From assembly GCF_023115465.1 (NCBI RefSeq), contig NZ_CP096034.1, positions 1,302,001-1,366,000 on the forward strand: 64,000 nt of DNA, read 5' to 3'. Source of the stretch: Gottfriedia acidiceleris (GTDB lineage Bacteria; Bacillota; Bacilli; Bacillales; Bacillaceae_G). How positions within the stretch are numbered: position 1 is the stretch's first letter; every line of letters begins with the position of its first letter. Position numbers and translations under genes: made by a program. Below are positions 4,208-21,059 of this stretch, piece after piece. The notes beneath the pieces were generated by a model, which was not told the origin of the DNA, made no database searches, and saw nothing but the letters and a program-made list of their open reading frames with translations.

Positions 4208-4255
4208 TTGACGTAATTTTCAAAACATTAAAAATACATAAAGTTTAAATATAAT
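4208..4255 (+). promoter_or_regulatory. Promoter block shared with the second subtilase gene
   Basis: TTGAC at 4208 and TATAAT at 4250-4255 bracket a 48-base block that recurs at 12691-12738 with 37 of 48 bases identical and no gaps. The common core reads AATTTTC-N-AAA and ACATAAAGT or CATAAAGT just before the -10. The TTGAC is too far from the -10 (36 bases between) to be its -35, and no good -35 stands at 17 bases. An activator-dependent promoter is therefore likely. The protease start is about 105 bases downstream. Confidence 0.65.
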
Positions 4256-4359: not shown

Positions 4360-7300
4360 TTGAAAAAACATATTGTAAAGAAAGTCTCTACACTTACGCT
4401 CGGAGCAGGATTGCTAACTAGTAGTCTGTATATCCCAAATAGTACAATACCAGCAAAAGCTGTTGGAACTACTTCCGCAGAGTCCATTTTAGCCAAGATG
4501 ACTCTTGAACAAAAACAAGCAATCAACAAACTGCAAACAATGGAAGAAAGTGGGCTCATGTTGTCACAAGACACAAATTTAGACAGTGATGCAGAGCTAT
4601 CCGTCATCGTCCAATTCAAGTCTGAGCCTGCTAAAACTGCGATTGTAATGGAAGAACTGAAAGGGAAAACCCTCTCATCTTCTCAAGCACAAACGAATGT
4701 GGAAAATGAGCATAAACAATTTCAAACAGATTTACAAAATATGTTTAAAAAAGAACTGGCTCAAAAGAAATCCCCATTCAAAATCACGAAATCGTACAAA
4801 CGAGTATTTAATGGGGTTGCGATGACACTTCCCGCTAATAAGGTAAAGGAATTACTTCAATCCGGCACGGTAAAAGCAGTTTGGAGCAATGCGCAAATGC
4901 AAGCAGAACCGCCGATTGAAGACCAAGAAACTAACGGTACATATACAACAAACGTATCCGAAAGCAGCGCTGTTATGGGCGTGGACAAGCTTCATCAAGA
5001 AGGATATACCGGTAAAGGAATAAAAGTAGGTGTGATAGATACAGGAATCGACTATAATCACCCTGATTTAAAGGGTGCCTATAAAGGCGGATATGATTTT
5101 GTGGATAATGATAATGATCCAATGGAAACTACATATAATGACTGGAGGAAATCGGGGGAACCAGAAGTTTCTAACGGCAGTACCTATTACACAGTGCATG
5201 GTACTCATGTAGCAGGTATCATCGCTGGACAAGGGAAAAATAAATCTGACTACGCTGTAACCGGAATTGCGCCTGAGGCAGATCTCTATTCATACCGGGT
5301 GCTAGGTGCCTATGGAAGAGGGACGACAGATAACATCATCGCCGCAATTGATAAGGCAGTAACTGACGGAATGGATGTCATTAATTTATCTCTAGGTAGC
5401 TCAATTAACGATTCATTAGATCCCGCGAGTATCGCTATTAACAACTCTGTAATGGCTGGGGTCGTGGCCGTAGTTGCAGCTGGCAATACCGGAAACGCTA
5501 TGTATTCTCTTGGAACTCCTGGTTCGGCAGCACTAGCTTTAACCGTAGGGGCAAGTAGCGCACCTATTACATTCCCTACCTTTAAAGGTTCGTTGCAAGT
5601 AGGAAATGAGTCTACGCCAGCTGATTTACGTTTTATGGGAAAAGGATTCGCAGATCACATCGAAAGTTTGAAAGGGAAATCCCTTCCAATTATGGACGTA
5701 AACTATGGATTTGAGCAAGATTATATTAATCAAGATGTAACGGGGAAAATCGTTCTGATGCGTCGTAATGATGGGACTCTTACCCAAAACATTAAAATTG
5801 CGATTGCAAAAGGAGCTGCGGCAGTTTTCATTTGGAACGATGATCCAACAGAAGGACAAATTCCTATCCTTTTACCAGATAGCTACGATCTTGTTCCTGT
5901 CTTTTCAGTGAACAATGAACAAGGTCTGAAACTTAAAGAAAAAGCAGCAAGCAACAATGCGGTATTTTCCTTTAATGAAATGGGAAGCGTTAAGTCTATA
6001 GGTGATCTTCTTGCTGATTTCAGTTCTCGTGGGCCAGCCCGTCCATCATTCGATATAAAACCGGAAGTCACTGCTCCAGGTGTAGCAATCATGTCAACAG
6101 TCCCATCATATAACAATGGTCCGTCCCATTTTGGCGATTACCAATATTCCTATGCAAGACTCTCTGGAACATCAATGGCAGCGCCTAATGTAACCGGGGT
6201 TGCCGCGCTCATGTTGCAAGCGAATCCCAACTTACAGCCAGAAGATGTAAAAACAACACTTATGAATACTGCAGACCCATTAGCACAGTCATATAGTGTA
6301 TATGAAGAGGGTGCAGGCCGAGTAGATGCTTACGAAGCGGTACACACTGATACACAAATCAAGGTGGAAGATAAAACCACAACATTGATCGATGGAAAAT
6401 ATAAGAAAATCAAAGAAGAAACAGGCGAGATCAGTTTTGGGCTACTTACATACAATGGAGAGGACATACTAGATTCTCGTTCCGTGACTTTGCAAAATAA
6501 TGGAAAACAGCAAAAAACTTTTAATGTAGATGTGCATTTCCAAACTAATGAAAGAGGATCAAAGGATGCTGTGAAGAATGGTGTGAAAATCTTGACAGAT
6601 TCTACTGTTAAAGTGAAAGGAAATAGCCAAAAGAAAGCGACGTTATCACTCTTCATTCCTAAATCAGCTGAAAAAGGTCCATATGAAGGATATATTGTGT
6701 ATACTAACCAAGACAACCGAGCTGAAACATACCAAGTTCCTTTTGCAGTTCGTTATGTGGAAGAAGGTATCGAAATTGATAATAGTGACCCAATCAATCC
6801 AATGTTTAGAACCCTTGATGGCATAACGGAGTCTTTTGCACCAATAACCTTTAATGGAACTGGAGCATCGGTAATACTTAAATCACCTATGAAAACAATT
6901 GATTTGGTACTTGTTGATGCCAAAACAAATAAAGAGATTGGATATGTAGGTACTTTGGATGGCACAAAGATTGAGGAGAATGTAGTCCATGGAATAGGTC
7001 CTTTCATGGGTACTGTTCCAGGGCAGTATGGTAAAGGGTACTATTTTCCATTTACAAATAATCCAGATGAACCAATTTTATCGGAACCAACATTGGCAGA
7101 TTCAGGACAGTATTACCTGAAATTCATCGCAACTAGTGAAAGTGGCAAAACGTACACTGCTAACAGAAATTTTTTAATTGATAATACACCTGTTCAATAC
7201 AATCTAAATCAAAAACCTGGCATCATTGAAGTAGATCCGGAACAAACCAGTTATACATTCTCTGGCAAGGTATTTGACAAAGAGACTGAAGAGATGTTCA

Positions 7301-8538
7301 AAGATGGCTTATTAGGAACAAAAAGGCAGTATTTGTATAATATACAAGAAAATACAATAGCTTCAAACGATGTTTATCCTTGGATACCGGGTGCATTTAT
7401 TTATGCAGATGATAATGGATATTTTCAATACGAAACGCCGATTGATGGAAAAACTATTAAACGAGTTACCTTATATTTAGGTGATTATGTAGGGACTGGG
7501 GACTATTGGTTCAATTCTTTCACCTTTATTCCAAAAGGTACTTCTTATATCAAAGCATCTACTGACAAGCAAGCTGTTAATACAAATGATTCTACAATAG
7601 TCACGCTTACTTCAAAACATATGAAAAATTTTACTGGTAGTGTGTTTACAGTTCGTGTTCCAAAACAATTGAACGTGGAAGACATAAAAGTAAATACTGC
7701 TTTTGCCGATAAGGGACAAATGAACGTAACATCACAAACAAGTGACAGTATCTATAACTATATAACAATTACGGTCAAGCGTGATGGAAGTCAAATGATG
7801 TCTGATAATGAGGTTCCTTTAGTGGACTTAAAGGTGAAGGTTCCTACTGACATACCTATGAGTAATCTTTCTAGACCATTCGTAGTCAATGTGACAGACG
7901 CGTACGGATTAGATAGCGATGGGAAGAAAGTGCCGGTAACAAGAGATTTAGGCGCAGCGGGTGCTGCACAATTTCTTGTACACTTAGGTTATTCCAAACA
8001 GACTTTTTATAACCTAGTTCCAGAAGGGTTAGTTCCAGGTGTAGAAAACTACAATACGATAGGAGCAAACGTTAAATTAATTGATGCTTCTGGTAAAGTG
8101 TATCAAGGTTCATTCGATGCGAATGGAGCTCAAAAAAATGTTACATTCAATTATCTGCCATTAACTGATAAACCATTCACCTTTATAGAAGACATTCCAG
8201 GGCACTTTACAGTAATCAAACAAATCAAAGCAGGAAGATCTATCGACGACAAGTACGTGGGTACCAACCGTCCTGGTTTTGTTAGACCTATTGTTGCAGG
8301 GGATGTAAACAAGGACAACGTGATAGATATACTAGATGCAATCTATATACAAACTTATTGGGGAACAAATAAACGTAGTGCAGATATTAACTTTGACGGA
8401 ACTGTAGATGCAAAAGACCTAGCATTTGTGCAAAAAAATTTCTTACGTCAAAATGTAAGTGTGAATAATCCACCGACACCTAAGAAAAAGTACAAGGGCA
8501 TTACATTAGAAATGATTTTAAAAGAGTTACATCCTTAA
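4360..8538 (+). CDS. Large secreted subtilase (S8) with PA insert and C-terminal dockerin-like domain, copy 1
   Basis: Secreted serine protease of 1392 residues, several times the size of subtilisin. The start is TTG, preceded by a purine-rich GGGAGAGG. Layout: signal peptide (about 1-35, lysine-rich then hydrophobic, with a possible AKA cleavage motif); propeptide-like region (about 80-185); S8 catalytic domain with Asp227 (VIDTGIDYNHPDL), His280 (HGTHVAG) and Ser605 (GTSMAAPN); a protease-associated (PA)-like insert about 430-540. Long beta-rich modules of Fn3/Ig type follow. Residues about 1315-1370 hold two calcium-loop repeats (DVNKDNVIDILDA and DINFDGTVDAKDL) of dockerin type I, then a short tail YKGITLEMIL also seen in copies 2 and 3. 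All three catalytic residues are intact. It is transcribed alone and followed by a terminator. Confidence 0.95.
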   Translation: MKKHIVKKVSTLTLGAGLLTSSLYIPNSTIPAKAVGTTSAESILAKMTLEQKQAINKLQTMEESGLMLSQDTNLDSDAELSVIVQFKSEPAKTAIVMEELKGKTLSSSQAQTNVENEHKQFQTDLQNMFKKELAQKKSPFKITKSYKRVFNGVAMTLPANKVKELLQSGTVKAVWSNAQMQAEPPIEDQETNGTYTTNVSESSAVMGVDKLHQEGYTGKGIKVGVIDTGIDYNHPDLKGAYKGGYDFVDNDNDPMETTYNDWRKSGEPEVSNGSTYYTVHGTHVAGIIAGQGKNKSDYAVTGIAPEADLYSYRVLGAYGRGTTDNIIAAIDKAVTDGMDVINLSLGSSINDSLDPASIAINNSVMAGVVAVVAAGNTGNAMYSLGTPGSAALALTVGASSAPITFPTFKGSLQVGNESTPADLRFMGKGFADHIESLKGKSLPIMDVNYGFEQDYINQDVTGKIVLMRRNDGTLTQNIKIAIAKGAAAVFIWNDDPTEGQIPILLPDSYDLVPVFSVNNEQGLKLKEKAASNNAVFSFNEMGSVKSIGDLLADFSSRGPARPSFDIKPEVTAPGVAIMSTVPSYNNGPSHFGDYQYSYARLSGTSMAAPNVTGVAALMLQANPNLQPEDVKTTLMNTADPLAQSYSVYEEGAGRVDAYEAVHTDTQIKVEDKTTTLIDGKYKKIKEETGEISFGLLTYNGEDILDSRSVTLQNNGKQQKTFNVDVHFQTNERGSKDAVKNGVKILTDSTVKVKGNSQKKATLSLFIPKSAEKGPYEGYIVYTNQDNRAETYQVPFAVRYVEEGIEIDNSDPINPMFRTLDGITESFAPITFNGTGASVILKSPMKTIDLVLVDAKTNKEIGYVGTLDGTKIEENVVHGIGPFMGTVPGQYGKGYYFPFTNNPDEPILSEPTLADSGQYYLKFIATSESGKTYTANRNFLIDNTPVQYNLNQKPGIIEVDPEQTSYTFSGKVFDKETEEMFKDGLLGTKRQYLYNIQENTIASNDVYPWIPGAFIYADDNGYFQYETPIDGKTIKRVTLYLGDYVGTGDYWFNSFTFIPKGTSYIKASTDKQAVNTNDSTIVTLTSKHMKNFTGSVFTVRVPKQLNVEDIKVNTAFADKGQMNVTSQTSDSIYNYITITVKRDGSQMMSDNEVPLVDLKVKVPTDIPMSNLSRPFVVNVTDAYGLDSDGKKVPVTRDLGAAGAAQFLVHLGYSKQTFYNLVPEGLVPGVENYNTIGANVKLIDASGKVYQGSFDANGAQKNVTFNYLPLTDKPFTFIEDIPGHFTVIKQIKAGRSIDDKYVGTNRPGFVRPIVAGDVNKDNVIDILDAIYIQTYWGTNKRSADINFDGTVDAKDLAFVQKNFLRQNVSVNNPPTPKKKYKGITLEMILKELHP

Positions 8539-8575
8539 AATCTGAAACTAGAAAACTAGGACAAATAGTCTTAAC

Positions 8576-8616
8576 AAAAAGGGTAAATTCAAAATATATG
8601 AATTTACCCTTTTTAC
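8576..8616 (+). terminator. Rho-independent terminator after subtilase copy 1
   Basis: AAAAAGGGTAAATTC pairs with GAATTTACCCTTTTT around an eight-base loop. The fully matched arms and terminal T run would work in both directions. Confidence 0.9.
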
Positions 8617-8684
8617 TATTTAATTAGGATTTTTAAAAAGCTAAAACCTTTACTTATAAAAATCGAGTTAATATCCTTCTATAC

Positions 8685-8712
8685 TTGACATGCAACTTAT
8701 TTGTTGCATAAT
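8685..8712 (+). promoter_or_regulatory. Promoter with embedded inverted-repeat operator of the ArsR-family gene
   Basis: TTGACA (8685-8690) and CATAAT (8707-8712) are separated by 16 bases. The spacer holds the inverted repeat ATGCAAC-N6-GTTGCAT (8690-8709), which overlaps both hexamers. A dimeric repressor bound here would exclude RNA polymerase, as expected for ArsR-family autorepression. Confidence 0.75.
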
Positions 8713-8721
8713 ATATAAATA

Positions 8722-9057
8722 ATGAGGAGGTTGAATGCAATCGATCAGGTTTTTAAAGCACTTGCCGATTCAAGTCGTAGAAAACTCCTTGACGAGCTTT
8801 TTATGAATGACGGCCAAACATTAAGTGAATTATGTCAACATCTTGAAATGAGTAGACAAGCAGTAACTAAACACCTAGTAATACTAGAAGAAGCAAATCT
8901 TGTTGTAGTAGTCTGGCATGGTCGAAATAAACTTCATTATCTTAATCCTGTACCGATTAGCGAAATTTCAAAGCGATGGATCAACAAATACGAACATAAT
9001 CGCTTAGATGCATTAAGTGAATTAAAAAAACTTGAGGAGGATCATAACAATGAATAA
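8722..9057 (+). CDS. ArsR-family winged-helix transcriptional regulator
   Basis: About 110 residues with a single winged-helix domain. FKALADSSRRKLLDELF begins it, and SELCQHLEMSRQAVTKHLVIL is the recognition helix, as in ArsR proteins paired with SRPBCC/AHSA1 partners. It has no cysteine metal box, so it is probably not a metal sensor. The start is uncertain: ATG at 8722 gives MRRLNAIDQ but has no upstream ribosome site, while an AGGAGG sits inside the first codons, so a later non-AUG start is possible. It overlaps the next gene by eight bases and probably represses its own promoter through the palindrome at 8690-8709. Confidence 0.88.
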   Translation: MRRLNAIDQVFKALADSSRRKLLDELFMNDGQTLSELCQHLEMSRQAVTKHLVILEEANLVVVVWHGRNKLHYLNPVPISEISKRWINKYEHNRLDALSELKKLEEDHNNE

Positions 9058-9505
9058 ACCACAATTTGTTTATGTTACATACATCGCAACTACACCCGAA
9101 AAACTATGGGAAGCATTAACAAGTACTCAATTTACTGAAAAATACTTTTTCGGAACTGCGATTGAATCTGATTGGCAAGTAGGGTCAACTGTTTCTTATT
9201 TACGAAATGGAGAGGTTACAGACTACGGTACGATTTTAAAATGTGATCCAAATCGTTTACTTTCTTTCACATGGAATCATACAAATGATCCAACGAACCG
9301 TAAAGAACCATCAATCGTTACATTTGTGTTGAAAGAATTAGAGTCCACAGTTAGATTAACGCTAAAACATGAAAATCTAGAACCGACTGATTTAGTAGAT
9401 CGTGATGACACATTTGAAGGATTAAACAATGGCTGGCCAGCAATTTTAAGTAACTTAAAAAGCTTGCTTGAAACAGGGAATACATTGCCACCTATTTCGA
9501 TTTAA
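9050..9505 (+). CDS. SRPBCC / AHSA1-like domain protein
   Basis: A 151-residue protein of the START/Bet v1-like AHSA1 group. Typical marks are the opening FVYVTYIATTPEKLWEALT, GTAIESDWQVGS, and the closing DTFEGLNNGWPAILSNLKSLLETG. The ATG at 9050 is chosen because GAGGAGG lies ten bases upstream, inside the end of the preceding gene. Members of this family bind hydrophobic ligands in a deep cavity and commonly sit directly after an ArsR regulator, as here. The ligand is unknown. Confidence 0.88.
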   Translation: MNKPQFVYVTYIATTPEKLWEALTSTQFTEKYFFGTAIESDWQVGSTVSYLRNGEVTDYGTILKCDPNRLLSFTWNHTNDPTNRKEPSIVTFVLKELESTVRLTLKHENLEPTDLVDRDDTFEGLNNGWPAILSNLKSLLETGNTLPPISI

Positions 9506-9534
9506 TTAAATATTAGTGACTCATAAGCTCTCAG

Positions 9535-9572
9535 TACCACAAGGAATAAATAGCCTTGTGGTTTTTCGTTTT
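9535..9572 (+). terminator. Rho-independent terminator of the ArsR/SRPBCC operon
   Basis: ACCACAAGG and CCTTGTGGT form a nine-pair stem with a short loop, followed by TTTTCG and more T residues. Confidence 0.85.
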
Positions 9573-9647
9573 TATTTAATGAGTTCTCTTTCTGTTATTA
9601 ATTTTAAGAATTGTGGGCAAATACAATTGTTTTAACAGTATATATCC

Positions 9648-9755
9648 GAGTTTTATCGATATATCAACGGGTTTTATCATATATCAACCAAAAGTGTTAT
9701 TTTATCAACGTGTTTAAGCAATATATCAACGAAGTTCAAAACATTATCAATATTG
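9648..9755. repeat. Phased degenerate repeat, about five 21-22 bp units around TATATCAACG
   Basis: Units begin near 9648, 9670, 9691, 9713 and 9735. Each ends in a version of ATATATCAAC preceded by a T-rich half such as GTTTTATC. The 21-22 bp period equals two helical turns, which would place all sites on one DNA face. The stretch has no convincing reading frame and lies between the previous terminator and the MarR operon promoter. Confidence 0.6.
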
Positions 9756-9865
9756 TTCACAAAGTGTTCGTTTTAATGGGAGTACCACCACCCAAGACAG
9801 CGAGAAAATTTTTAATCAAATCAATTTACATATATCGTAATATAAGATATATTCTATCTATAAGA

Positions 9866-9884
9866 TATAATCGTATTATACGAT
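9866..9884 (+). promoter_or_regulatory. -10 element with overlapping palindromic operator of the MarR operon
   Basis: TATAAT (9866-9871) overlaps the palindrome ATCGTA-TTA-TACGAT (9870-9884). Related ATATCGTAATAT-like half-sites occur 30-40 bases upstream. This fits autoregulation by the MarR protein encoded immediately downstream; AAGGAG follows at 9887. Confidence 0.65.
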
Positions 9885-9899
9885 ATAAGGAGAATCAAC

Positions 9900-10325
9900 T
9901 TGGATAAAGAAATTAAAAAAATAAATCAATTATGGACCGATATTTACTATCTTTTACGATATAAACATAAAGAAAATATTACGCACCAAAGTGTTAGGAT
10001 TTTACAAATTATTGATAAAGAAGATGAAGTTGGAATAAAGGACATTGCTGAAGGGATTCAAGTCTCACACAATACAGCATCAGAACATGTTAAACGTTTA
10101 CTAGAAAAAGACTATGTTTATAAAACTCGAGGCGAGATGGATCAACGAAAAGTAATATTAAAGCTTACCGATTTAGGTAAAGATGTTTTACTACAAAATT
10201 CAAGTTTAAATGAAGAGAAACTTCAACAGCTTCTTTTTGAACAGATGACAGAACAAGAAAGAGAAACGATTTTAATAGCCTTTAATTTAATGAAAGAGAG
10301 GGCTCAAAATGTACGCGATTATTAA
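9900..10325 (+). CDS. MarR-family transcriptional regulator
   Basis: A 141-residue winged-helix regulator. It starts at TTG 9900 with AAGGAG eight bases upstream. The DNA-binding core is GIKDIAEGIQVSHNTASEHVKRLLEKDYV, followed by the wing RGEMDQRKVILKLTDLGKDVL with the DxR signature of MarR proteins. Terminal helices for dimerisation are present, so it looks full length. The last 17 bases overlap the following DUF3147 gene, so the two form an operon. It probably represses its own promoter through the palindrome at 9870-9884; the inducing ligand is unknown. Confidence 0.92.
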   Translation: MDKEIKKINQLWTDIYYLLRYKHKENITHQSVRILQIIDKEDEVGIKDIAEGIQVSHNTASEHVKRLLEKDYVYKTRGEMDQRKVILKLTDLGKDVLLQNSSLNEEKLQQLLFEQMTEQERETILIAFNLMKERAQNVRDY

Positions 10326-10647
10326 AATATTAATTTCAGCAATTATAATCGGAGTTATTACCGAAATTGCACGTCGATTCCCTACACAGGGTGGATTAAT
10401 TGCGGCATTACCTATTGTTAGTCTATTAAGTCTAATATGGCTTAATGTTCAAGGTGAACAAGTGCAAACATTAAGTAAATTTGCATATGGAGTTGTAATA
10501 GGCATTCCGGGAACGATAGTTATGTTATTAATTATAGGAGTAGCGCTTCAGCACTCATTGCATTTAGTTGTTTCAATCGGACTTGGTATTATAGGATGGC
10601 TTGTTTATATTTTTGCCCAAGACTTAGTCGTAAAACATTTGTTTTAA
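10309..10647 (+). CDS. DUF3147 family small membrane protein
   Basis: A 112-residue protein with about four hydrophobic segments. The opening ISAIIIGVITEIARRFPTQGGLIAALPIVSLLSLIWL is characteristic of DUF3147, whose function is unknown. The start lies inside the end of the MarR gene, in another frame, indicating translational coupling. The regulator therefore probably controls this membrane protein. Confidence 0.85.
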   Translation: MYAIIKILISAIIIGVITEIARRFPTQGGLIAALPIVSLLSLIWLNVQGEQVQTLSKFAYGVVIGIPGTIVMLLIIGVALQHSLHLVVSIGLGIIGWLVYIFAQDLVVKHLF

Positions 10648-10727
10648 TTAAAAGACACTTTTGCGACTTAAATCAAAACTTCATAAATAAGTTTTAATTA
10701 AAATAATTAGTAATTAAAGGAGAAAAA

Positions 10728-11111
10728 ATGCTTAAAAAACTAAAATTATGGGCGAAGAAATTAAAGCGACAAGTCTTCACACTTTATTATGCATGCAAGG
10801 ATGAACGTGTTCCGTGGTATGCAAAAGTTTTCATTGCTTGTGTAGTTGCTTATGCTTTTAGTCCCATTGATTTAATCCCTGATTTTATTCCAATTTTAGG
10901 ATATTTAGATGATGTTATACTTATTCCTTTAGGTATTATTATTTCTTTAAAGCTGATTCCAGAAAATGTAAAAATAGAATGTGAAATGAAAGCAGAAGAG
11001 ATGTTGAATAAGGGGAAACCAGTAAACTGGATAGTAGGTTCATTCATATTATTGGTTTGGGGAGTGATTTTTATTTGGCTCATATTAAAGGTTTATCAAT
11101 TATTTAGTTAA
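10728..11111 (+). CDS. YkvA-type DUF1232 membrane protein
   Basis: A 127-residue protein. The DUF1232 signature AYAFSPIDLIPDFIPILGYLDDVILIPLGI occupies about residues 43-73, followed by a basic/acidic stretch and a C-terminal membrane segment (about 100-122). AAAGGAG precedes the ATG. DUF1232 proteins are small membrane proteins of unknown role, often in stress regulons. It is 80 bases after the DUF3147 gene with no obvious terminator between, so co-transcription is possible, and a terminator follows. Confidence 0.88.
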   Translation: MLKKLKLWAKKLKRQVFTLYYACKDERVPWYAKVFIACVVAYAFSPIDLIPDFIPILGYLDDVILIPLGIIISLKLIPENVKIECEMKAEEMLNKGKPVNWIVGSFILLVWGVIFIWLILKVYQLFS

Positions 11112-11150
11112 AGTTGAAATGAGAAATTGATTGGTAAAAAAATTATGTTA

Positions 11151-11196
11151 CAAAAACGACTGTCCTGTTTAGTAGGCAGTCGTTTTAGTTTTTATT
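11151..11196 (+). terminator. Rho-independent terminator
   Basis: AAAACGACTG pairs with CAGTCGTTTT around a loop of about a dozen bases and runs into a T-rich tail. Confidence 0.85.
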
Positions 11197-11280
11197 AAGG
11201 TATGTTTCAAAAAAAATAATTGACTTTGGGCTTCTGTGATTAATGTCACTCGTATAAATCACATTAGTCCATAAGCCACC

Positions 11281-11309
11281 TTGACAGTTTTTCATTAGAG
11301 CTTTCTAAT
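11281..11309 (+). promoter_or_regulatory. Predicted sigma-A promoter of the AimR-like gene
   Basis: TTGACA (11281-11286), a 17-base spacer and TCTAAT (11304-11309) form a good vegetative promoter. It lies about 83 bases before the start codon. Confidence 0.6.
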
Positions 11310-11391
11310 TAATATAGAAGAAATTTAATAATATTAAAGATACGGACATTTAAATAGATTTATATTAAATGATAGAAGGAAGGTAAGTAAG

Positions 11392-12642
11392 TTGAATTTA
11401 AAATTGTTCCACAGGATTATGGATCATATGCATGAAAAAGAATGGAATATAACTCAACTCGCTAAAAATTCTAATATTCATTTGACTGAAATAAGCCGAA
11501 TTCTAAATCATAAACAATCTCTTTCATTACGTAATTTGGATGCAATTACTGCCGGTCTCATTCTAGAGGAAGGTACTTTTTATTCAGATTATATTGAAGA
11601 ATGTTTTAATGAAAATAAGTATATGGATAAACGAAGAAGTATGGAATTTTTATATAAATGCGCATCACTTGGATACGAAGACTTGCTTCAAAATTTTTTT
11701 AATAGAGTTATAGATGAAAGGTCGAAACAAATTCTTAAGAAAAATTTACATTATATTTTTTTAGTTGCAGAAAGTCTTTTTGAGGAGAAAAAAGAGTTGC
11801 TTGCATTACCTCTATATGAGTGCGTAATTGAGAGTATGCCCGATTATCATTCCAGTCAATTAGCAAAAAGTATCTATAGGAAATATTTCATAGTTAGGTT
11901 GACTGAGCAGGGACTTGATACTGAAGTACATCTTTTAAGGCACTTACATAATTTGCCACGGGAAATGCAATTATCTACATATTTGTGGATTATGGCTACT
12001 TGTTATATTCGTCAGGATTGGCAAAAGGTAATGGATTATGCAAAGATTTTAGAGAAATTAGCTAAAGAGGGAGACTATTATGGTAGAGCACTTCTTTATC
12101 AAGGTTTCGCATTGCTTCGATTAGGTGGTTCATTGGAAGAAGTTTTATGTATAATAGACCGTTACTCAAAAGTCAACGATTACTATAGTGACTTAGCTGT
12201 TGGGAACAGATTTGTTGCGTACTTAGAATTCGGACATTTTGAATATGTAGATGCATACTTAAATTGGCTGGAAGATAGAGATGACATGTTAGTTGGTTTA
12301 CCCAGAATTTTAGAAGTATATATAAAACTTGGTCGTGTAAATGATGTTGAAATATTGTTAAATCGAAATTTTCATCTTTTTGAGGAAATGGCTCTTAGTA
12401 AAGAGCCATTCAAGCAACAAATGTATTTACAATTCCGTTATTCACATGCTTTATACCAGTGTACTAGAAATAAAATTACTGAGGGCATACATGAAATTTT
12501 AGATGTTGCAATTACAGCAATAGAACTTGGTATTGCTAAAGGATATAAAAAATGTCTCTTGATGTACTGGAATTATAGACATAAAATTGATTCGGAGCAT
12601 GAGCGAAAATATTTAAAAATTCTAGGTAGTTCAATGAAATGA
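11392..12642 (+). CDS. AimR-like / RRNPP-type helix-turn-helix regulator
   Basis: A 416-residue protein with an N-terminal helix-turn-helix (about 1-65; NITQLAKNSNIHLTEISRILNHKQSLSLRNLDAITAGL) and a long all-helical C-terminal region with TPR-like repeats. Size and the motif MEFLYKCASLGYEDLL match AimR-family receptors of Bacillus phages and their chromosomal relatives. In RRNPP proteins the TPR region binds a short secreted peptide and switches DNA binding. TTG start; AGAAGGAAGG precedes it. No phage genes or aimP-like peptide gene follow: a terminator stands directly after the stop, then the promoter of subtilase copy 2. Regulation of the two subtilases is an inference from position and their shared promoter block. 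Confidence 0.8.
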   Translation: MNLKLFHRIMDHMHEKEWNITQLAKNSNIHLTEISRILNHKQSLSLRNLDAITAGLILEEGTFYSDYIEECFNENKYMDKRRSMEFLYKCASLGYEDLLQNFFNRVIDERSKQILKKNLHYIFLVAESLFEEKKELLALPLYECVIESMPDYHSSQLAKSIYRKYFIVRLTEQGLDTEVHLLRHLHNLPREMQLSTYLWIMATCYIRQDWQKVMDYAKILEKLAKEGDYYGRALLYQGFALLRLGGSLEEVLCIIDRYSKVNDYYSDLAVGNRFVAYLEFGHFEYVDAYLNWLEDRDDMLVGLPRILEVYIKLGRVNDVEILLNRNFHLFEEMALSKEPFKQQMYLQFRYSHALYQCTRNKITEGIHEILDVAITAIELGIAKGYKKCLLMYWNYRHKIDSEHERKYLKILGSSMK

Positions 12643-12677
12643 GGACGATGACAATTTTTGTTATCGTTCTTTTTTTA
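12643..12677 (+). terminator. Rho-independent terminator after the AimR-like gene
   Basis: GACGATGACA and TGTTATCGTTC form a stem with one G-T pair around a short T-rich loop, followed by a run of T residues. Confidence 0.8.
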
Positions 12678-12690
12678 TAAAAAAATAAAT

Positions 12691-12738
12691 TTGACAGAAT
12701 TTTCGAAATAGTAAAATTCCATAAAGTCTTTTTATAAT
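12691..12738 (+). promoter_or_regulatory. Promoter block shared with subtilase copy 1
   Basis: TTGACA (12691) to TATAAT (12733-12738) has exactly the spacing of the block at 4208-4255, with 37 of 48 identical positions. The core AATTTTC-N-AAA and CATAAAGT are common to both, and the real -35 region is again weak. Confidence 0.65.
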
Positions 12739-12776
12739 AAAACGCGTAGGACTATTTAATTGAAGGGAAGAGAAGG

Positions 12777-15700
12777 ATGAGAAAGATTAAAAATCGTATC
12801 ACTCCATTGACGCTAAGCATGGGGCTAATTTGCAGTACATTTGCACCAATATCCGCTGTATCAAATGTTCATGCTCAAACTACTTCATCAGTTGAGCAAG
12901 TACTATCAAAGCTTACTCCAGCTCAGAGACAAGCATTAAAGCAACTTCAAACAAGCGATCAAACTGGATTGCAAATTTCATCGGATGTCAATCTAGAAAC
13001 TGATAAACCAATCTCAGTCATCGTTGAATTTGAGACAAAACCATCCAAGATTGCGATGCTTGAATCTCAGTTGCAAGGAGAAAGTCTTACTTCTTCAAGT
13101 GCTAATCAACTAGTTGAGGAGTCACATGAAAACTTTAAAAATGATGCAAGTAAGATCTTAAAACAAAAGCAATATAAAATTAAGCGTACATACAAAACAT
13201 CCTTTAACGGTGTTTCGATGACTCTTCCAGCTAATCAAGTTAAATCATTGTTGAAATCAACTACTGTAAAAGCAGTTTGGAGCGATAGCGAAGTACATAT
13301 AGATCCACCTGTAGACATGAAAGATAATGCTACTAATGTTTCTAATGATTCTTCAAATATGCCAAGTAGTATGCCATTTTTAGGAATTGATAAGCTTCAT
13401 GAAGAAGGCTATACAGGTAAAGGAGTTAAAGTAGGGATAATTGATACAGGTATCGATTATAATCATCCTGACTTAAAAGACGCTTATAAGGGCGGTTATG
13501 ATTTTGTCGATAACGATTCAGATCCAATGGAAACTACATACGATGATTGGGTTAAAGCAGGGAAACCGTTTGGCGGTAGCGGTACATATTACACTGAACA
13601 TGGTACGCATGTTTCTGGGACAATTGCGGCAAGAGGGAAAAACAACTCACCTAATGCTCTCGTGGGAGTAGCACCAGATGCAGACTTATATATGTATCGT
13701 GCTTTAGGTCCATATGGTTCAGGAACATTAGATGCCATTATGGCAGGGATTGATAAAGCAGTTCAAGATGGTATGGATGTTATTAACCTATCGTTAGGAA
13801 CAAATTACAACGATCCTCTTTTTGTGACAAGTGTTGCAATTAATAATGCAGTTCTTCAAGGTGTGACAGCAGTAGTTGCTGCAGGAAATGCAGGTCCAAA
13901 TTCATATACAGTCGGTTCTCCAGGAGCAGCAGCTCTTGCTTTAACAGTTGGAGCAAGTGATGTTCGTACAACAGTATTGCAACCTAAAGGAACACTTCAT
14001 ACTAGTATAGGTGATTTGCCTGCATCCCAGATGGAAATAAACGCAGAGAACTTTGACAATCCTATATCTGGTTTTAAAGGACAATCACTACCAATTGTGG
14101 ATGTTGGTAAAGGCCTTGAAACAGATTTTGCTAACAAAAATGTTGCAGGAAAGATTGTCTTGACGAATATTTATTATGCAAATGTAAGTACAAAAATCGC
14201 TACCGCAAAAAAATACGGTGCAAAAGCTGTTATTCTTTATGATCCTGATCAAACTTATACTTCTTTAGGTTCTTTAGGGAAAAGTCCTAATTATCTACCT
14301 ACATTTTTCATACCAAAACAGGAAGGGAATGCAATTTATAATCAATTAAAACAAAGTGGAGAGGCATCATTTACTTTTGACGATGTAAAGGAAGTGGTTT
14401 CTTCAGAAGGAGATCATTTAGCATCTTTCAGCTCAAAAGGCCCAACAAAAGTAACATATGATATTAAGCCAGAAATTACTGCACCAGGAGTACAAATCCT
14501 TTCCACAGTACCATCGTATATTAATGGCCCAAATTATATTGGAAACTATAATTACGCATACCAACAACTATCAGGAACATCAATGGCAACACCGCATGTC
14601 TCAGGTATTGCTGCTTTATTACTTCAAAAAAATCCTGACTATACACCAGCTGATATCAAAACAATTTTAATGAATACAGCAGATCCATTAAAAGATTCAT
14701 ACAGCGTTTATGAAGTGGGAGCTGGTCGAGTTGATCCTTATGAGGCGATTCACTCTGATGCTGAAGTCCAAGTTTCAGATGAAACACCAATGATTCGAAA
14801 TGGTAAGGAAAAGCAAATTAAAGAAAAGACTGGGGCAATTAGCTTTGGAACAGTGGCACCTAGTGGACAAAATGTAGGAGATAAGCGAACACTTACAATC
14901 TATAACAATAGCAAGCAAGCTAAAACATTTGATGTAAAAGTAGCGTTTCAAAAGGATCGATTAGGTTCAAAGGATGCAGATGCAAATGGAGTTGGAATTG
15001 TAACAGATAAAACGATTAAAGTAAATGCAGCTTCGAAAAAGCAATCTGTCGTTTCTATTTTTATTCCAAAAACCGCTGCACTGGGAACATATGAAGGGTA
15101 TATTACTTACACGAATCAATCGAATCCAGATGAAGTCTATCAAGTACCTTTCGCAGTGCGTCTTGTTGAAAAAGGAGTATATGGGATGATTGTATCACCT
15201 AATGTCTTTACAACAGAAACTGATAGCTTCCACTTAGCACAAATTAATAATGCTAGTGTAATGTTTGAATTTAAATCTCATATGAGATATGTCGATTTAG
15301 TTTTAGAGGATTCTAAAACAAATAAAGAAATAGGATATATTGGTCAAATTGACGGTATCCCTTTAATGGATAATGTAACTTATTATTTACAAAAAGCATT
15401 TGATGGATCGTACTACCCGCTTACTAGTGACGAGAAAAATCCAATTGCAGATGAAAAAGTAATGGCACCTCAAGGAGCATATAAAATTAAGTTAATCGCA
15501 ACTGAAGATGATGGAACAACGTACGAAACTGAAAGCCCAGTCTATATCGATAATGAAAAGCCAACACTCAAATTGGATAAGACAGATGGAGTTTACGAAT
15601 ACGAATCTGGCCAGCAAACAGTTCAGTTAAAAGGATCAATCATTGATGGAGAATATGCTGATATGAATGCAAATGGTATTAATCTTACGCAATCTTCTAA

Positions 15701-16871
15701 CAAGCTGATGTACAGCTACAATGGAGGAACTAATCAGTCTAAGCCAGTAGCAGAAGATGGAACTTTCTCTGTTGATGTTCCTATGATTGAATCGAATCCT
15801 CTTTTAGCGGTGCAATTGTACGGACTAGATGCAGCTACAAACAAGGATTTCCGTAGTGCTAAACAATTTTTCTTTGCGAAAAAAGGTACTTCATATGCAA
15901 TATCTAAACCGGATAAACAAGATGTCAAAATGGGTGAAACATTTAAATACACCTTATCTTTAAATAATGTAAAAGATCTTCGCAAGGCTGACTTTGCTTT
16001 TAAATATTTAAAAACTTATTTTGATTTAATTGATGTTAAACCAAACCCAGAAGCAAGTAAGTACGGGGAAGTTAACATTAATCAAGAAATAGCAGATAGT
16101 GGTACATTGAGAAATATGAAAATCACAGCAACTATACCTGAACAAGCAAACGTATCGGGTAATATTCCATTAGTGGATATCACTTTAAAAGTTCGTGATG
16201 ACAAATTCATGAAAGAACCTACTGCGCTTGTTAGTACAAGTACATCTTATACAAATACTGCAAATAATGTAGTACAAGTAAAGTCTGCAGATTTTTATGT
16301 ATCGATGATTCCAACTTATTCTGAAACGTTTGGGGATGTAAAGGCAGAAGGGTTAATGAAAAATGGTGCTGTAAACTTTGGAGTTGACCATACAACGGTT
16401 GGTGGAACAATTAAAGCAGTTGATGTGAATGGAATCGCTTATAATGGGGTTATTTTAAAAACGCCATCATTTACTTTATCGAAATTACCGATTACGAATA
16501 AGCCGTTGACATTTGTTATGGACATTCCTGGACATTTTACAGTAAGAAAGCCTTTTTTAATTAGTGATAACGACAATGGTAGTTTAATAGGGCAACGTAT
16601 GTTGCTTAACTATAATCCTGCTATTGCTGGAGATGTAAATAAAGATGATGTGATCGATGTTCTTGATGCACTTTACATCCAAACTTATTGGGGTACAAGT
16701 AAGCGTGAAGCAGACATTAACTTTGATGGAAAAGTGGATGCTGCGGACATGGGATTTGTAAAGAAAAATTATTTAATGCAAAATCCGACAGCCACGAATG
16801 CTCCTAAACCTAAAAAGACTTATAAAGGTCAAACATTAGAGAGTGTACTAGAATCGCTTAATATTCAGTAA
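12777..16871 (+). CDS. Large secreted subtilase (S8) with dockerin-like C-terminus, copy 2
   Basis: Secreted S8 protease of 1364 residues, colinear with copies 1 and 3. It has a signal peptide (about 1-34, ending near VHA), a propeptide-like region, and a catalytic domain with Asp223 (IIDTGIDYNHPDL), His275 (HGTHVSG) and Ser602 (GTSMATPH). A PA-like insert lies between His and Ser. Long beta-sandwich modules follow, then two calcium-loop repeats near residues 1285-1340 (DVNKDDVIDVLDA and DINFDGKVDAADM) and the tail YKGQTLESVL. GGGAAGAGAAGG lies before the ATG. The gene is only 69 bases from copy 3 with no terminator, so the two probably form one transcript driven by the conserved block at 12691. 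Confidence 0.95.
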   Translation: MRKIKNRITPLTLSMGLICSTFAPISAVSNVHAQTTSSVEQVLSKLTPAQRQALKQLQTSDQTGLQISSDVNLETDKPISVIVEFETKPSKIAMLESQLQGESLTSSSANQLVEESHENFKNDASKILKQKQYKIKRTYKTSFNGVSMTLPANQVKSLLKSTTVKAVWSDSEVHIDPPVDMKDNATNVSNDSSNMPSSMPFLGIDKLHEEGYTGKGVKVGIIDTGIDYNHPDLKDAYKGGYDFVDNDSDPMETTYDDWVKAGKPFGGSGTYYTEHGTHVSGTIAARGKNNSPNALVGVAPDADLYMYRALGPYGSGTLDAIMAGIDKAVQDGMDVINLSLGTNYNDPLFVTSVAINNAVLQGVTAVVAAGNAGPNSYTVGSPGAAALALTVGASDVRTTVLQPKGTLHTSIGDLPASQMEINAENFDNPISGFKGQSLPIVDVGKGLETDFANKNVAGKIVLTNIYYANVSTKIATAKKYGAKAVILYDPDQTYTSLGSLGKSPNYLPTFFIPKQEGNAIYNQLKQSGEASFTFDDVKEVVSSEGDHLASFSSKGPTKVTYDIKPEITAPGVQILSTVPSYINGPNYIGNYNYAYQQLSGTSMATPHVSGIAALLLQKNPDYTPADIKTILMNTADPLKDSYSVYEVGAGRVDPYEAIHSDAEVQVSDETPMIRNGKEKQIKEKTGAISFGTVAPSGQNVGDKRTLTIYNNSKQAKTFDVKVAFQKDRLGSKDADANGVGIVTDKTIKVNAASKKQSVVSIFIPKTAALGTYEGYITYTNQSNPDEVYQVPFAVRLVEKGVYGMIVSPNVFTTETDSFHLAQINNASVMFEFKSHMRYVDLVLEDSKTNKEIGYIGQIDGIPLMDNVTYYLQKAFDGSYYPLTSDEKNPIADEKVMAPQGAYKIKLIATEDDGTTYETESPVYIDNEKPTLKLDKTDGVYEYESGQQTVQLKGSIIDGEYADMNANGINLTQSSNKLMYSYNGGTNQSKPVAEDGTFSVDVPMIESNPLLAVQLYGLDAATNKDFRSAKQFFFAKKGTSYAISKPDKQDVKMGETFKYTLSLNNVKDLRKADFAFKYLKTYFDLIDVKPNPEASKYGEVNINQEIADSGTLRNMKITATIPEQANVSGNIPLVDITLKVRDDKFMKEPTALVSTSTSYTNTANNVVQVKSADFYVSMIPTYSETFGDVKAEGLMKNGAVNFGVDHTTVGGTIKAVDVNGIAYNGVILKTPSFTLSKLPITNKPLTFVMDIPGHFTVRKPFLISDNDNGSLIGQRMLLNYNPAIAGDVNKDDVIDVLDALYIQTYWGTSKREADINFDGKVDAADMGFVKKNYLMQNPTATNAPKPKKTYKGQTLESVLESLNIQ

Positions 16872-16940
16872 TAAATTAGCAATCTATAGAAGGTAATTCG
16901 TAGCAAATTTACTTACTTAAATGGAAAAGGGAGAAAGAGA

Positions 16941-19900
16941 ATGAGAAAAAACATTACGAAATCAGTTACTGCACTTGCTATAGGAACAAGTTTACTTGCT
17001 GGGGGCTTTGTATCATCATCTGGAATTAAGCCGGTTAATGTACAAGCTGCTGTGAATACGGAATCGATTTTAGCAAAGCTTACACCGGAGCAAAGAAAAG
17101 CTTTAACCCAATTACAAATGAGCGATCAATCTGGTCTGCAGATTAGTCCTGAAGTGAATTTGAACAGTGATGAAAAAATCACGGTAATCGTCCAGTTTAA
17201 AACATTACCATCAAAAACAGCGGTCCTATCTGCAAAGGCTGAAGGAAAGACTTTAAGTGTGTCACAGGCTGATCAACAAGTTGAAGATTCTCATACAAAT
17301 TTTCAAAAGGATTTAACATCAATTTTTAAAAATGATAAAAATAAAACGCCTTACACAATTAAGCGAAAGTACAAGCATGCTTTTAATGGCGTATCAATGC
17401 AAATTCCAGCTAATAAAGTTGAAGCTTTAATGCAATCAAAAGCTGTTAAAGCTGTGTGGGAAAGTAAAGAAATAAAAGTTGATCCTCCGGTTGAACAAGA
17501 AAGTACTGAAACTGGAACTGATTTACCTGAAGGAGATGTGAATTCCTTTTTAGGAGTGGACAAGCTTCATAAAGAAGGTTACACAGGTAAAGGAATTAAA
17601 GTAGGGGTAATTGATACAGGTGTTGACTACAATCATCCAGATATTAAGGCTGCATATAAAGGTGGTTATGATTTCGTCGATAATGATAATGATCCGATGG
17701 AAGCAACGTATGATGATTGGAAAAAATCCAAACAATTAGAGTTTATTTCAGGCGCATCATATTATACTGTACACGGAACTCACGTTTCTGGAACAATCGT
17801 TGGACAAGGCACAGCTGACTCTGAATACTCGGTGACAGGTATAGCTCCAGATGCTGATTTATATGTGTATCGTGTACTTGGTCCATACGGTAAAGGTTCA
17901 TCAGATGCAATCATCGCTGGAATTGACAAGGCTGTAAGTGACGGAATGGACGTTATTAATCTATCACTTGGTTCGGATTACAATGACCCGATGAATCCAC
18001 TTGCTTTTGCAATTAACAATGCTGTCCTATCAGGCGTAACAGCGGTCTTAGCTGCAGGAAATGCTGGGAATGGTATGTATACGGTTGGAACTCCGGGAAA
18101 TGCACCATTAGGACTAGCAGTTGGGGCAAGTAGTGTACCGGCTACAATTGAAGAAATAAAAGGTTCGGTTCAAACTAGCGCAGGAAAAACTGCGGCCGAT
18201 GTTCGCTTAATGGCAAAGAACTTTACAGATGATATTCAAAGCTTTGTTGGTAAAAATTTACCAGTCGTGGATGCGGGTTACGGTGCTTTTGCTGACTATA
18301 ATGGTAAGGATGTTAAAGGGAAAATCGCTTTAGTTCAACGTGGTAGCATTACTTTAAACGATAAAATTAAGTTTGCTAAACTAAAGGGAGCAGCGGCTTT
18401 ATTCATCTACAATTCTGATCCGAAAGAAGGGTATGTTCCAAATTATTTTGGAGAAGGAGTTGCCAATATTCCAACCTTCTCTTTAACAAATGCTCAAGGA
18501 TTGGAATTATTACAAAAAGTTAATGCAGGCGTTACATCCTACTCATTTGAAAAATTAGGAGAAGTAAAAACAGAAGGTGACAAGCTTGCTCCGTTTAGTT
18601 CACGTGGTCCTGCACGTGTAACATATGATATTAAACCTGAAGTTACAGCGCCTGGTGTAGATATTCTTTCTACTGTGCCAACGGACTTCGCTGGTAGTGC
18701 ATCACTTGGTGACTATAAACATGCATATGCACGCTTGTCTGGTACATCAATGGCAAGTCCGCATGTAGCTGGTATTGCGGCATTATTATTACAGGCTCAT
18801 CCCGATTACACACCATTAGATGTGAAGGCTACCTTAATGAATACTGCAGACCAACTAAGTGATAAATATAGTGTTTATGAAGTAGGAGCAGGGCGTGTTG
18901 ATGCATATGAAGCAGTACATGCAGGAGCAAATTTAGAGGTGCTTGATACTACTGACACAATGATTGGCAATAAAATGAAAACGATTAAAGAAACTACAGG
19001 CGCAATCAGCTTCGGTACATTTACTTCAACAGGAGTAAATAGAGAAGATTATCGCAATGTAGTATTAAGAAATGATAGTAAAGAAACGAAAACTTTTGAT
19101 GTAAAAGCAGTTTACCAAACTTCTAGAATCTCAAAAGATGCCGTTGCGAATAATGTAAAGATAACAGTCGATTCAGAGTTAAAGGTAAAACCAGGTCAAC
19201 AAAAGAAACATGCAGTATTTATTGATATTCCAGCAAATGCTGAAAAAGGGACATATGAGGGGTATATTGTTTACACAAATAAACAAAATCCAGATGAAAC
19301 ATATCAAATTCCGTTTGCAGCACGTTTTGTAGAAGAAGGTATTGAAGAAGTAGGTGCATTTCCATATGCAATGACAAGTAATAATTACGACAATCATCCT
19401 TTTACGAGATTAAATACGGATTTATATTTCCAGTTAAAATCTCATATGCGTTATATCGACGTAGTACTTACGGATGCGAAAACGAATGAAGATCTTGGGA
19501 TTATTGGAACATTAGATGGAATTCAAGCAGATGAAAATATATTGTACCGTGTGGCGAATGGATTTGGAGGAACTTATATTCCATTTTCTGCTGATCCAAA
19601 TAGTCCACTAGTTTACAAGTATGTAAAAGCAAAACCAGGGTTATATAAAATTAAATTTATCGGACGAAACGATCAAGGTAAAACTTTCAGTTCTGAAACA
19701 AAAGTCTATATTGAAGACAATAATCCTACTGTTCAGCATAGTTTACCGTTCGGCGTTTACGAATATGAAGAAGGCCAGCAATCAATTCCGTTTTCAGGAA
19801 CAGTATTCGATAAAGATATCGAGGATATGAAAACAATGGGATTTGATATTGATCAATCATTTAACTCAGTTGTAGGTTATTATGATACATTTATGGGTCC

Positions 19901-21059
19901 TTATGGATGGGTTGCATCACCTTCAGAAGAGCTAACTGTTGATCAAAATGGACAGTATAAAGGTGAAGTTAAGCTAAATCCAGATGCTAATTTTACTCGT
20001 TACTACTCATTTGCAATGGATTCGGCGTCGAATGGTGATTTCGGTAGAATGAATGAAACACTTTTTGTTAAAAAGGGAAGTCCTTATGTAACAGGAAGCT
20101 TAAATAAAGAACAAATTAAGATGGGAGAAACTGTTTCAGCTACTCTATCTGGTCACAACTTAAACAAAACAAATAAAGTCTTATTCGAATTTGACTATGC
20201 ACCATATAATTTTGAAATCGTGGATATATTGAAAAATTCACAAACGAAAAGTCAAATTAGCGCGGTAACAACTGAAGAATCAAATTCAACGAGTGGAAAA
20301 CATATGAAAGTGACAGTAGAGTTAACAAAGCCTGTATCTGGTGAAGTTCCACTTCTTGATATTCAAGTAAAAGCTAAAAGTGATAATTTTAATAAAGGCT
20401 GGTATGAACTACAGGACTTAAAGGCTAGTGTTACAAATAAATCTGGTACAACAGAAAGTGCGCCTGGATTTATGAAGTCATTCAACGTCATACCGACTTA
20501 TTCACAAATGGCTGCCAAAATGAATCCAGAAGCATACTTTACACCACAAGGAGTGCAGATTGCCCCTTACGATTACTCGAAAATCGGTGCTAAAATTAAA
20601 GTAATGGATGATCAAAACAATGTTTATACGAATGTAACAGTTCATCCTGAGGGTTTCTTTGAAGTATTCAATCTTCCATTAACTGATAAACCATTTACAT
20701 TTGAAGTAGCTGTACCAGGTCACTTCACAACGAAAGGAACATTCACAATTGGAAAGTCAACTGGGAATGGTGTACTTGGAGAAGCAAAATTAATTGGTGG
20801 AATTAGTATCATCGCAGGAGATGTCAATAATGATGACGTTATTGATGTAAAAGATGCAATTGCGATGAAAGAAAACTGGGGTACAATTAATCGAGCAACT
20901 GATATTAACTTCGACGGTAAGACGGATGCAAAAGATTTTGCCTTCATTGAGCAAAACTATATGATGAAAAATCCAACCGTAACGGATGCTCCAAAACCAG
21001 TTAAAAAGTATCAAGGAATAACAATTGATCTTGTCAAAACTCAATTAGGAATAAACTAG
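16941..21059 (+). CDS. Large secreted subtilase (S8) with dockerin-like C-terminus, copy 3
   Basis: Secreted S8 protease of 1372 residues and third member of the tandem family. Signal peptide about 1-36; catalytic residues Asp225 (VIDTGVDYNHPDI), His278 (HGTHVSG) and Ser603 (GTSMASPH); PA-like insert; extended beta-rich region; calcium-loop pair DVNNDDVIDVKDA and DINFDGKTDAKDF near the end; tail YQGITIDLVK. AAAGGGAG precedes the ATG. It lacks the 48-base promoter block of copies 1 and 2 and most likely depends on read-through from copy 2. A terminator follows the stop. Confidence 0.95.
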   Translation: MRKNITKSVTALAIGTSLLAGGFVSSSGIKPVNVQAAVNTESILAKLTPEQRKALTQLQMSDQSGLQISPEVNLNSDEKITVIVQFKTLPSKTAVLSAKAEGKTLSVSQADQQVEDSHTNFQKDLTSIFKNDKNKTPYTIKRKYKHAFNGVSMQIPANKVEALMQSKAVKAVWESKEIKVDPPVEQESTETGTDLPEGDVNSFLGVDKLHKEGYTGKGIKVGVIDTGVDYNHPDIKAAYKGGYDFVDNDNDPMEATYDDWKKSKQLEFISGASYYTVHGTHVSGTIVGQGTADSEYSVTGIAPDADLYVYRVLGPYGKGSSDAIIAGIDKAVSDGMDVINLSLGSDYNDPMNPLAFAINNAVLSGVTAVLAAGNAGNGMYTVGTPGNAPLGLAVGASSVPATIEEIKGSVQTSAGKTAADVRLMAKNFTDDIQSFVGKNLPVVDAGYGAFADYNGKDVKGKIALVQRGSITLNDKIKFAKLKGAAALFIYNSDPKEGYVPNYFGEGVANIPTFSLTNAQGLELLQKVNAGVTSYSFEKLGEVKTEGDKLAPFSSRGPARVTYDIKPEVTAPGVDILSTVPTDFAGSASLGDYKHAYARLSGTSMASPHVAGIAALLLQAHPDYTPLDVKATLMNTADQLSDKYSVYEVGAGRVDAYEAVHAGANLEVLDTTDTMIGNKMKTIKETTGAISFGTFTSTGVNREDYRNVVLRNDSKETKTFDVKAVYQTSRISKDAVANNVKITVDSELKVKPGQQKKHAVFIDIPANAEKGTYEGYIVYTNKQNPDETYQIPFAARFVEEGIEEVGAFPYAMTSNNYDNHPFTRLNTDLYFQLKSHMRYIDVVLTDAKTNEDLGIIGTLDGIQADENILYRVANGFGGTYIPFSADPNSPLVYKYVKAKPGLYKIKFIGRNDQGKTFSSETKVYIEDNNPTVQHSLPFGVYEYEEGQQSIPFSGTVFDKDIEDMKTMGFDIDQSFNSVVGYYDTFMGPYGWVASPSEELTVDQNGQYKGEVKLNPDANFTRYYSFAMDSASNGDFGRMNETLFVKKGSPYVTGSLNKEQIKMGETVSATLSGHNLNKTNKVLFEFDYAPYNFEIVDILKNSQTKSQISAVTTEESNSTSGKHMKVTVELTKPVSGEVPLLDIQVKAKSDNFNKGWYELQDLKASVTNKSGTTESAPGFMKSFNVIPTYSQMAAKMNPEAYFTPQGVQIAPYDYSKIGAKIKVMDDQNNVYTNVTVHPEGFFEVFNLPLTDKPFTFEVAVPGHFTTKGTFTIGKSTGNGVLGEAKLIGGISIIAGDVNNDDVIDVKDAIAMKENWGTINRATDINFDGKTDAKDFAFIEQNYMMKNPTVTDAPKPVKKYQGITIDLVKTQLGIN

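Follow-up and report, generated by a model that had tools for sequence, protein, structure and literature searches.

The gene at positions 11392-12642 (+ strand) of the window, the 64,000-nucleotide stretch of a 4.69-Mb Gottfriedia chromosome analysed here, encodes a 416-residue receptor/regulator of the AloR type with an HTH and a TPR-like body. We propose that the protein is probably a chromosomal AloR-type regulator of the RRNPP class that lacks a pheromone gene of its own and serves to control secreted subtilases. In the clade to which it belongs, the peptide gene appears to have been replaced by a subtilase gene as the constant partner. Our literature search found no paper on a receptor–subtilase gene pair in Gottfriedia.

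The receptor reading frame begins with a TTG codon preceded by a GGAAGG-type ribosome site, and this start is retained by orthologues that are 76-97% identical to the window receptor. Residues 4-53 form a Cro/C1-type HTH, to which the HTH families match weakly in the window protein and better in its paralogues (HTH_3 down to 1.5e-9). Beyond it lies a long helical region that is weakly TPR-like. Structure prediction from an alignment of four rows gave a moderate model (pLDDT 73, pTM 0.48) with an all-helical body. A Foldseek search with this model placed PlcR on top with a weak score and AimR, ComR, Rap, NprR and PrgX among the best matches, in a list with E > 0.001, low TM-scores and unrelated TPR proteins mixed in; the scores are weak because the predicted model is only moderate. 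Asn272 is invariant in 53/53 aligned receptors, AloP-bearing and AloP-less alike, and a ligand-binding role of the receptor may thus persist. Three receptors of genome G002, encoded on its plasmid and chromosome (L063, L065 and L066), carry a C-terminal extension of ~60 residues ending in SN(L/F)YWWDGI that is not present in the remaining receptors.

In tblastn searches, receptors on Paenibacillus and Brevibacillus plasmids match the window receptor with E-values from 2e-27 to 4e-31, and the matches to P. polymyxa and Brevibacillus plasmid receptors and to two Brevibacillus phage receptors extend over much of its length. Profile comparison with hhalign gave 100% (E = 3e-69) to L096, an AloP-bearing receptor of another family, and 99.5% to phage Emery gp60. 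The receptor is thus a full-length homologue of AloR-type receptors from Paenibacillaceae and from Brevibacillus, judged against these plasmid and phage receptors and L096 rather than the AloR proteins of P. polymyxa ATCC 842 themselves. A maximum-likelihood tree with a midpoint root places the window protein inside a clade of 37 receptors with support 100/100, and the sister of this clade is L096, itself a long branch. Relatives in the phage collection were confined to the two Brevibacillus phages, and none turned up when viral contigs were scanned with four queries. We do not file the receptor as an AloR–AloP system because the pheromone gene was tested for and is absent.

Ahead of the receptor, a promoter-like sequence, TTGACA-N17-TCTAAT at 11281..11309 (+), is recognised from sequence only and is kept in orthologues. 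About 45 bp 5' of its -35 element lies a CRP/FNR-type box, TGTGATTAATGTCAC at window positions 11235-11249, which is largely retained in orthologues; 0.29 such matches are expected by chance per window. Further upstream are ArsR-type and MarR-type HTH regulators, AHSA1, DUF3147 and DUF1232, and the other neighbouring ORFs checked encode subtilases (two in tandem 3' of the receptor), DUF3291 and an SDF symporter. The sequence-only reading had noted a terminator right after the receptor stop and no phage genes nearby, and both observations hold: an intrinsic terminator at 12641..12671 (+) overlaps the stop codon (RNA fold -20 kcal/mol, z = -6.5), and none of the neighbouring ORFs checked is phage-like. 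No Rfam families were found in window positions 8500-17000.

The same reading was also right that no small secreted peptide frame of the aimP type adjoins the receptor. From the window receptor to the next gene there are no frames of 15-90 residues that combine a hydrophobic N-terminus with a ribosome site. Nor do orthologues share any micro-ORF of 5-60 residues between receptor and subtilase or up to 400 bp upstream. Small-ORF scans 3' of 36 clade receptors likewise found no conserved aloP-like frame, the frames seen not being common to orthologues. A hydrophobic 32-residue frame at L038 and a 66-residue frame at L039 were ruled out as aloP or aimP, as orthologues do not share them, and a recurring micro-ORF, MKGREG, in the region of the subtilase ribosome site was ruled out because its frame is lost in L039. 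A genome search for signal-peptide frames ending in GxGW, a narrow test that covers the sister-clade kind of AloP only, gave eight DNA matches, none of them qualifying. Among the outgroup receptors, 13 of 16 have an AloP-like secreted frame of 37-54 residues that adjoins the receptor stop or overlaps it, such as MKKWFMSMLVVIGLVASFAGIAAAKAQSQIDPNWLGTGW next to L096; the L107 locus holds one more receptor with a frame of this kind.

These searches bear on an alternative that we consider possible though somewhat doubtful, namely that the receptor belongs to a complete quorum-sensing system with a peptide gene at another place in the genome or in the form of a missed leaderless micro-ORF, the protease being a mere target. 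There is a precedent in RopB of Streptococcus pyogenes, an RRNPP regulator that adjoins SpeB and is driven by an 8-residue leaderless peptide from a 24-bp ORF (PMC10518010). Retention of Asn272 in receptors with and without AloP would fit such a system, and one trans-encoded peptide could serve several paralogues. The lack of a conserved micro-ORF around the receptor and of a GxGW-ending signal-sequence frame in the genome argues against it, although diverged or distant peptide genes could escape both tests.

What stands beside the receptor instead is a secreted S8 subtilase of 1364 residues at 12777..16871 (+), its conserved partner, with I9, S8 with PA, cohesin-like and dockerin parts. A second subtilase of the family (16941..21059, +, 1372 residues) follows 69 bp downstream; it has no operator of its own and may be co-transcribed with the first. 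A third (4360..8538, +, 1392 residues) is a predicted regulon member. All three have I9, S8 with a PA insert and a C-terminal dockerin, and the 12777 protein has the cohesin-like domain in addition; dockerin and cohesin-like parts within one protease family could allow assembly into complexes. This genome has 30 matches to the family, and G002 has 47.

The pairing extends throughout the clade. This genome has three clade receptors, at 1313392 (the window receptor), 686429 and 3386296, and 12 of 13 genomes of the genus carry from one to ten each. At 25 of the 37 clade receptors the next large gene is a full-length S8 subtilase of ~1,360-1,430 residues (24 of 36 receptors in Gottfriedia and its sister genus, plus the one in G330 of another family), always on the same strand and, in all but one case, less than 800 bp away. 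Chance adjacency would be below 1% per receptor, given 30 subtilase matches among an estimated ~4,500 genes, with the proviso that paralogues do not count as independent cases. Where a full-length neighbour is missing, several receptors keep subtilase remnants. Downstream of the 686429 paralogue, an intact operator and promoter are followed by the last subtilase codons (NDNSPKAATKYKRKTLADGLEAQGLG); L052 has a similar subtilase tail, and dockerin or tail fragments were recognised by eye at L041 and L036. Near the 686429 paralogue, a DEAD-box helicase (L005:10313-12313) carries an extended tail of GRAERTGNA-type repeats in which several reading frames are open. Across 24 pairs, the distances between receptors are correlated with those between subtilases (Mantel r = 0.75, 0/2000 permutations); shared cassette ancestry alone suffices as an explanation, so that the correlation is no proof of co-adaptation. 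The earlier suggestion of a chromosomal receptor outside phage, linked to the adjacent subtilases, is thereby borne out, and the linkage is clade-wide with a common operator-like promoter.

Such constancy also invites the idea that the clade swapped its pheromone for a protease gene and that each receptor senses peptides released by its own subtilases, whether derived from substrates or from the proteases themselves. Occupation of the pheromone gene's place by a protease gene throughout the clade and the several parallel receptor–protease pairs per genome are in line with this idea. We nevertheless consider it unlikely: the sister-clade peptide motifs GxGW and GEGG do not occur inside the subtilases, and simple target regulation accounts equally well for the adjacency.

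A shared operator design also supports the proposed dedication of the receptor to subtilases. An operator-like palindrome, TTGACAGAATTTT-N9-AAAATTCCATAAA, predicted from the DNA letters alone, lies at 12691..12725 (+) and is followed by the -10 box TATAAT of the subtilase promoter at 12733..12738 (+), for which a promoter scan recognised no -35 box. Since no -35 hexamer stands at the right distance, we infer that the promoter probably needs an activator. A second operator-promoter of the same design, at 4208..4255 (+) and outside the model training set, lies 5' of the 4360 subtilase. Most receptor-linked subtilases have this arrangement of TATAAT, no -35 box and a palindrome of 34-35 bp; the design is found again between receptor and subtilase in paralogous pairs, one receptor subgroup has it in its promoters, and the palindrome also stands ahead of some unlinked subtilases. 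Complementarity between the arms of the 34-bp form is 78%, versus 35% after column shuffling (0/2000), and reaches 79% at four unlinked sites.

Genome-wide, the exact pattern matched no site but that of the window, and therefore a profile model, R1, was used, built solely from receptor-linked sites. In this genome R1 finds six sites with E < 1e-6, followed by a gap to E = 9e-4. Four precede subtilases, one a receptor and one a subtilase remnant. Half of the six had served to train the model; the three that had not belong to the subtilases at window position 4360 and genome position 831324 and to the remnant at 687767. The predicted regulon takes in the subtilases at window positions 12777 and 4360 and at genome positions 831324 and 3381961. 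The best sub-threshold match (E = 9e-4), near genome position 852777 (L190:1-2975, - strand), precedes the gene of another kind of secreted S8-type protein, at least 991 residues long. Across 19 genomes of the family there are 46 sites with E <= 1e-4: ten in receptor promoters, 17 at subtilases that adjoin a receptor (for one of these, at the end of a contig, the gene is inferred), 16 at unlinked subtilases, one at a remnant and two before a ~100-residue ORF with a LysR-type HTH. The latter two (L188:5474-5779, - strand, and L189, oriented upstream of its receptor) have no adjoining receptor or subtilase, and the ORF of ~101-103 residues that follows contains a LysR-type HTH only and is conserved in two genomes. 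In the receptor subgroup L058, L060, L062 and L065-L067 the site is divergent or weak.

Sites occur in 13/13 receptor-bearing genomes of the family versus 0/6 receptor-less ones; the receptor-less G004 has four subtilase matches and zero operator sites. A site is also present in G330, outside the family. We regard this co-occurrence as strong but not decisive support for recognition of the palindrome by the receptors, and not fully independent, given the kinship of the genomes and a model trained on receptor-linked sites. Six HTH residues, I29, H30, S35, R36, N39 and K41, are invariant among ten aligned receptor paralogues, as expected if the paralogues share one operator.

The palindrome could also be the site of another transcription factor, in which case the receptor would be a neighbour with a different target or role. 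Its absence from the window receptor's own promoter and from most of the genome's 30 subtilase matches would be compatible with this. We find the explanation improbable, as within the family the motif is confined to receptor-bearing genomes, precedes the receptors' own genes in one subgroup and has been kept at an orphan receptor whose neighbour is a subtilase remnant, and the invariant HTH residues across paralogues fit a shared operator.

In the mechanism that we favour, that of a pheromone-less regulator of subtilases, a receptor dimer would bind the 34-35 bp palindrome, which would cover the place of the missing -35 box. The bound receptor would then switch the subtilase gene next to it and some farther away, with activation more likely than repression, and some receptor paralogues probably control their own genes too. 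The TPR-like body has probably kept the ability to bind a short imported peptide, for which an unlinked or leaderless gene, other cells or the proteases' own products are candidate sources.

Among the closest known systems are the AloR–AloP systems described in Paenibacillus, with which the receptor shares whole-length homology, an HTH with a TPR-like body, many paralogues per genome and regulation, here predicted, of an adjacent gene, AloR13 controlling a spo0E-like gene (PMC7425212). The Gottfriedia receptor differs in having no AloP gene, in adjoining a large secreted subtilase and in its hosts, Gottfriedia and kin outside the Paenibacillaceae. RopB–SpeB shares with it an RRNPP-class regulator beside a secreted protease gene, its presumed target, and the lack of a classical propeptide gene; the subfamily and the protease type differ, and no leaderless peptide ORF was found in Gottfriedia. 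By analogy, the best reading is that the receptor would work most like RopB–SpeB, and also like NprR and PlcR. NprR and PlcR are RRNPP regulators of secreted proteases. In contrast to the Gottfriedia receptor, NprR–NprX–NprA and PlcR–PapR of the Bacillus cereus group have their own secreted propeptide gene, and no sequence match between them and the receptor was found.

AimR–AimP of SPbeta-type phages has the HTH and helical-repeat architecture in common with the receptor. Descent of the receptor from an AimR recruited from an arbitrium phage is very improbable: although AimR and AloR belong to one structural clan (PMC12700828), the weak Foldseek matches include AimR structures and many chromosomal AimR-type receptors without propeptide genes are known (PMC9765709), the receptor matches neither PF22871 nor any NCBIfam model, reaches an hhalign probability of 0.6% against phi3T AimR, has no phage context and matches AloP-bearing receptors strongly instead. 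PF22871 detected nothing in the genome except an unrelated sub-threshold hit, and 3' of the receptor there is neither aimP nor aimX, the terminator and a subtilase being there instead. The initial description of the protein as AimR-like is thus sound at the level of the RRNPP class and fails as membership of the AimR family. The phylogeny and subtilase co-occurrence check proposed with it does reveal a clade-wide subtilase link, with a kinship that is of the AloR and not the AimR type.

Pheromone-less receptors are already known and are usually viewed as solitary genes of unclear role. The novelty here is a whole clade without a peptide gene that has a conserved new partner, a predicted operator and a predicted regulon, which turns what an orphan pheromone receptor senses into a testable question. 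The predicted regulon also opens a way to study how a secreted protease family of unusual size, with 30 matches in this genome, is controlled. If the receptors do sense products of their own subtilases, extracellular proteolysis itself would be the signal, read through parallel receptor–protease pairs in each genome.
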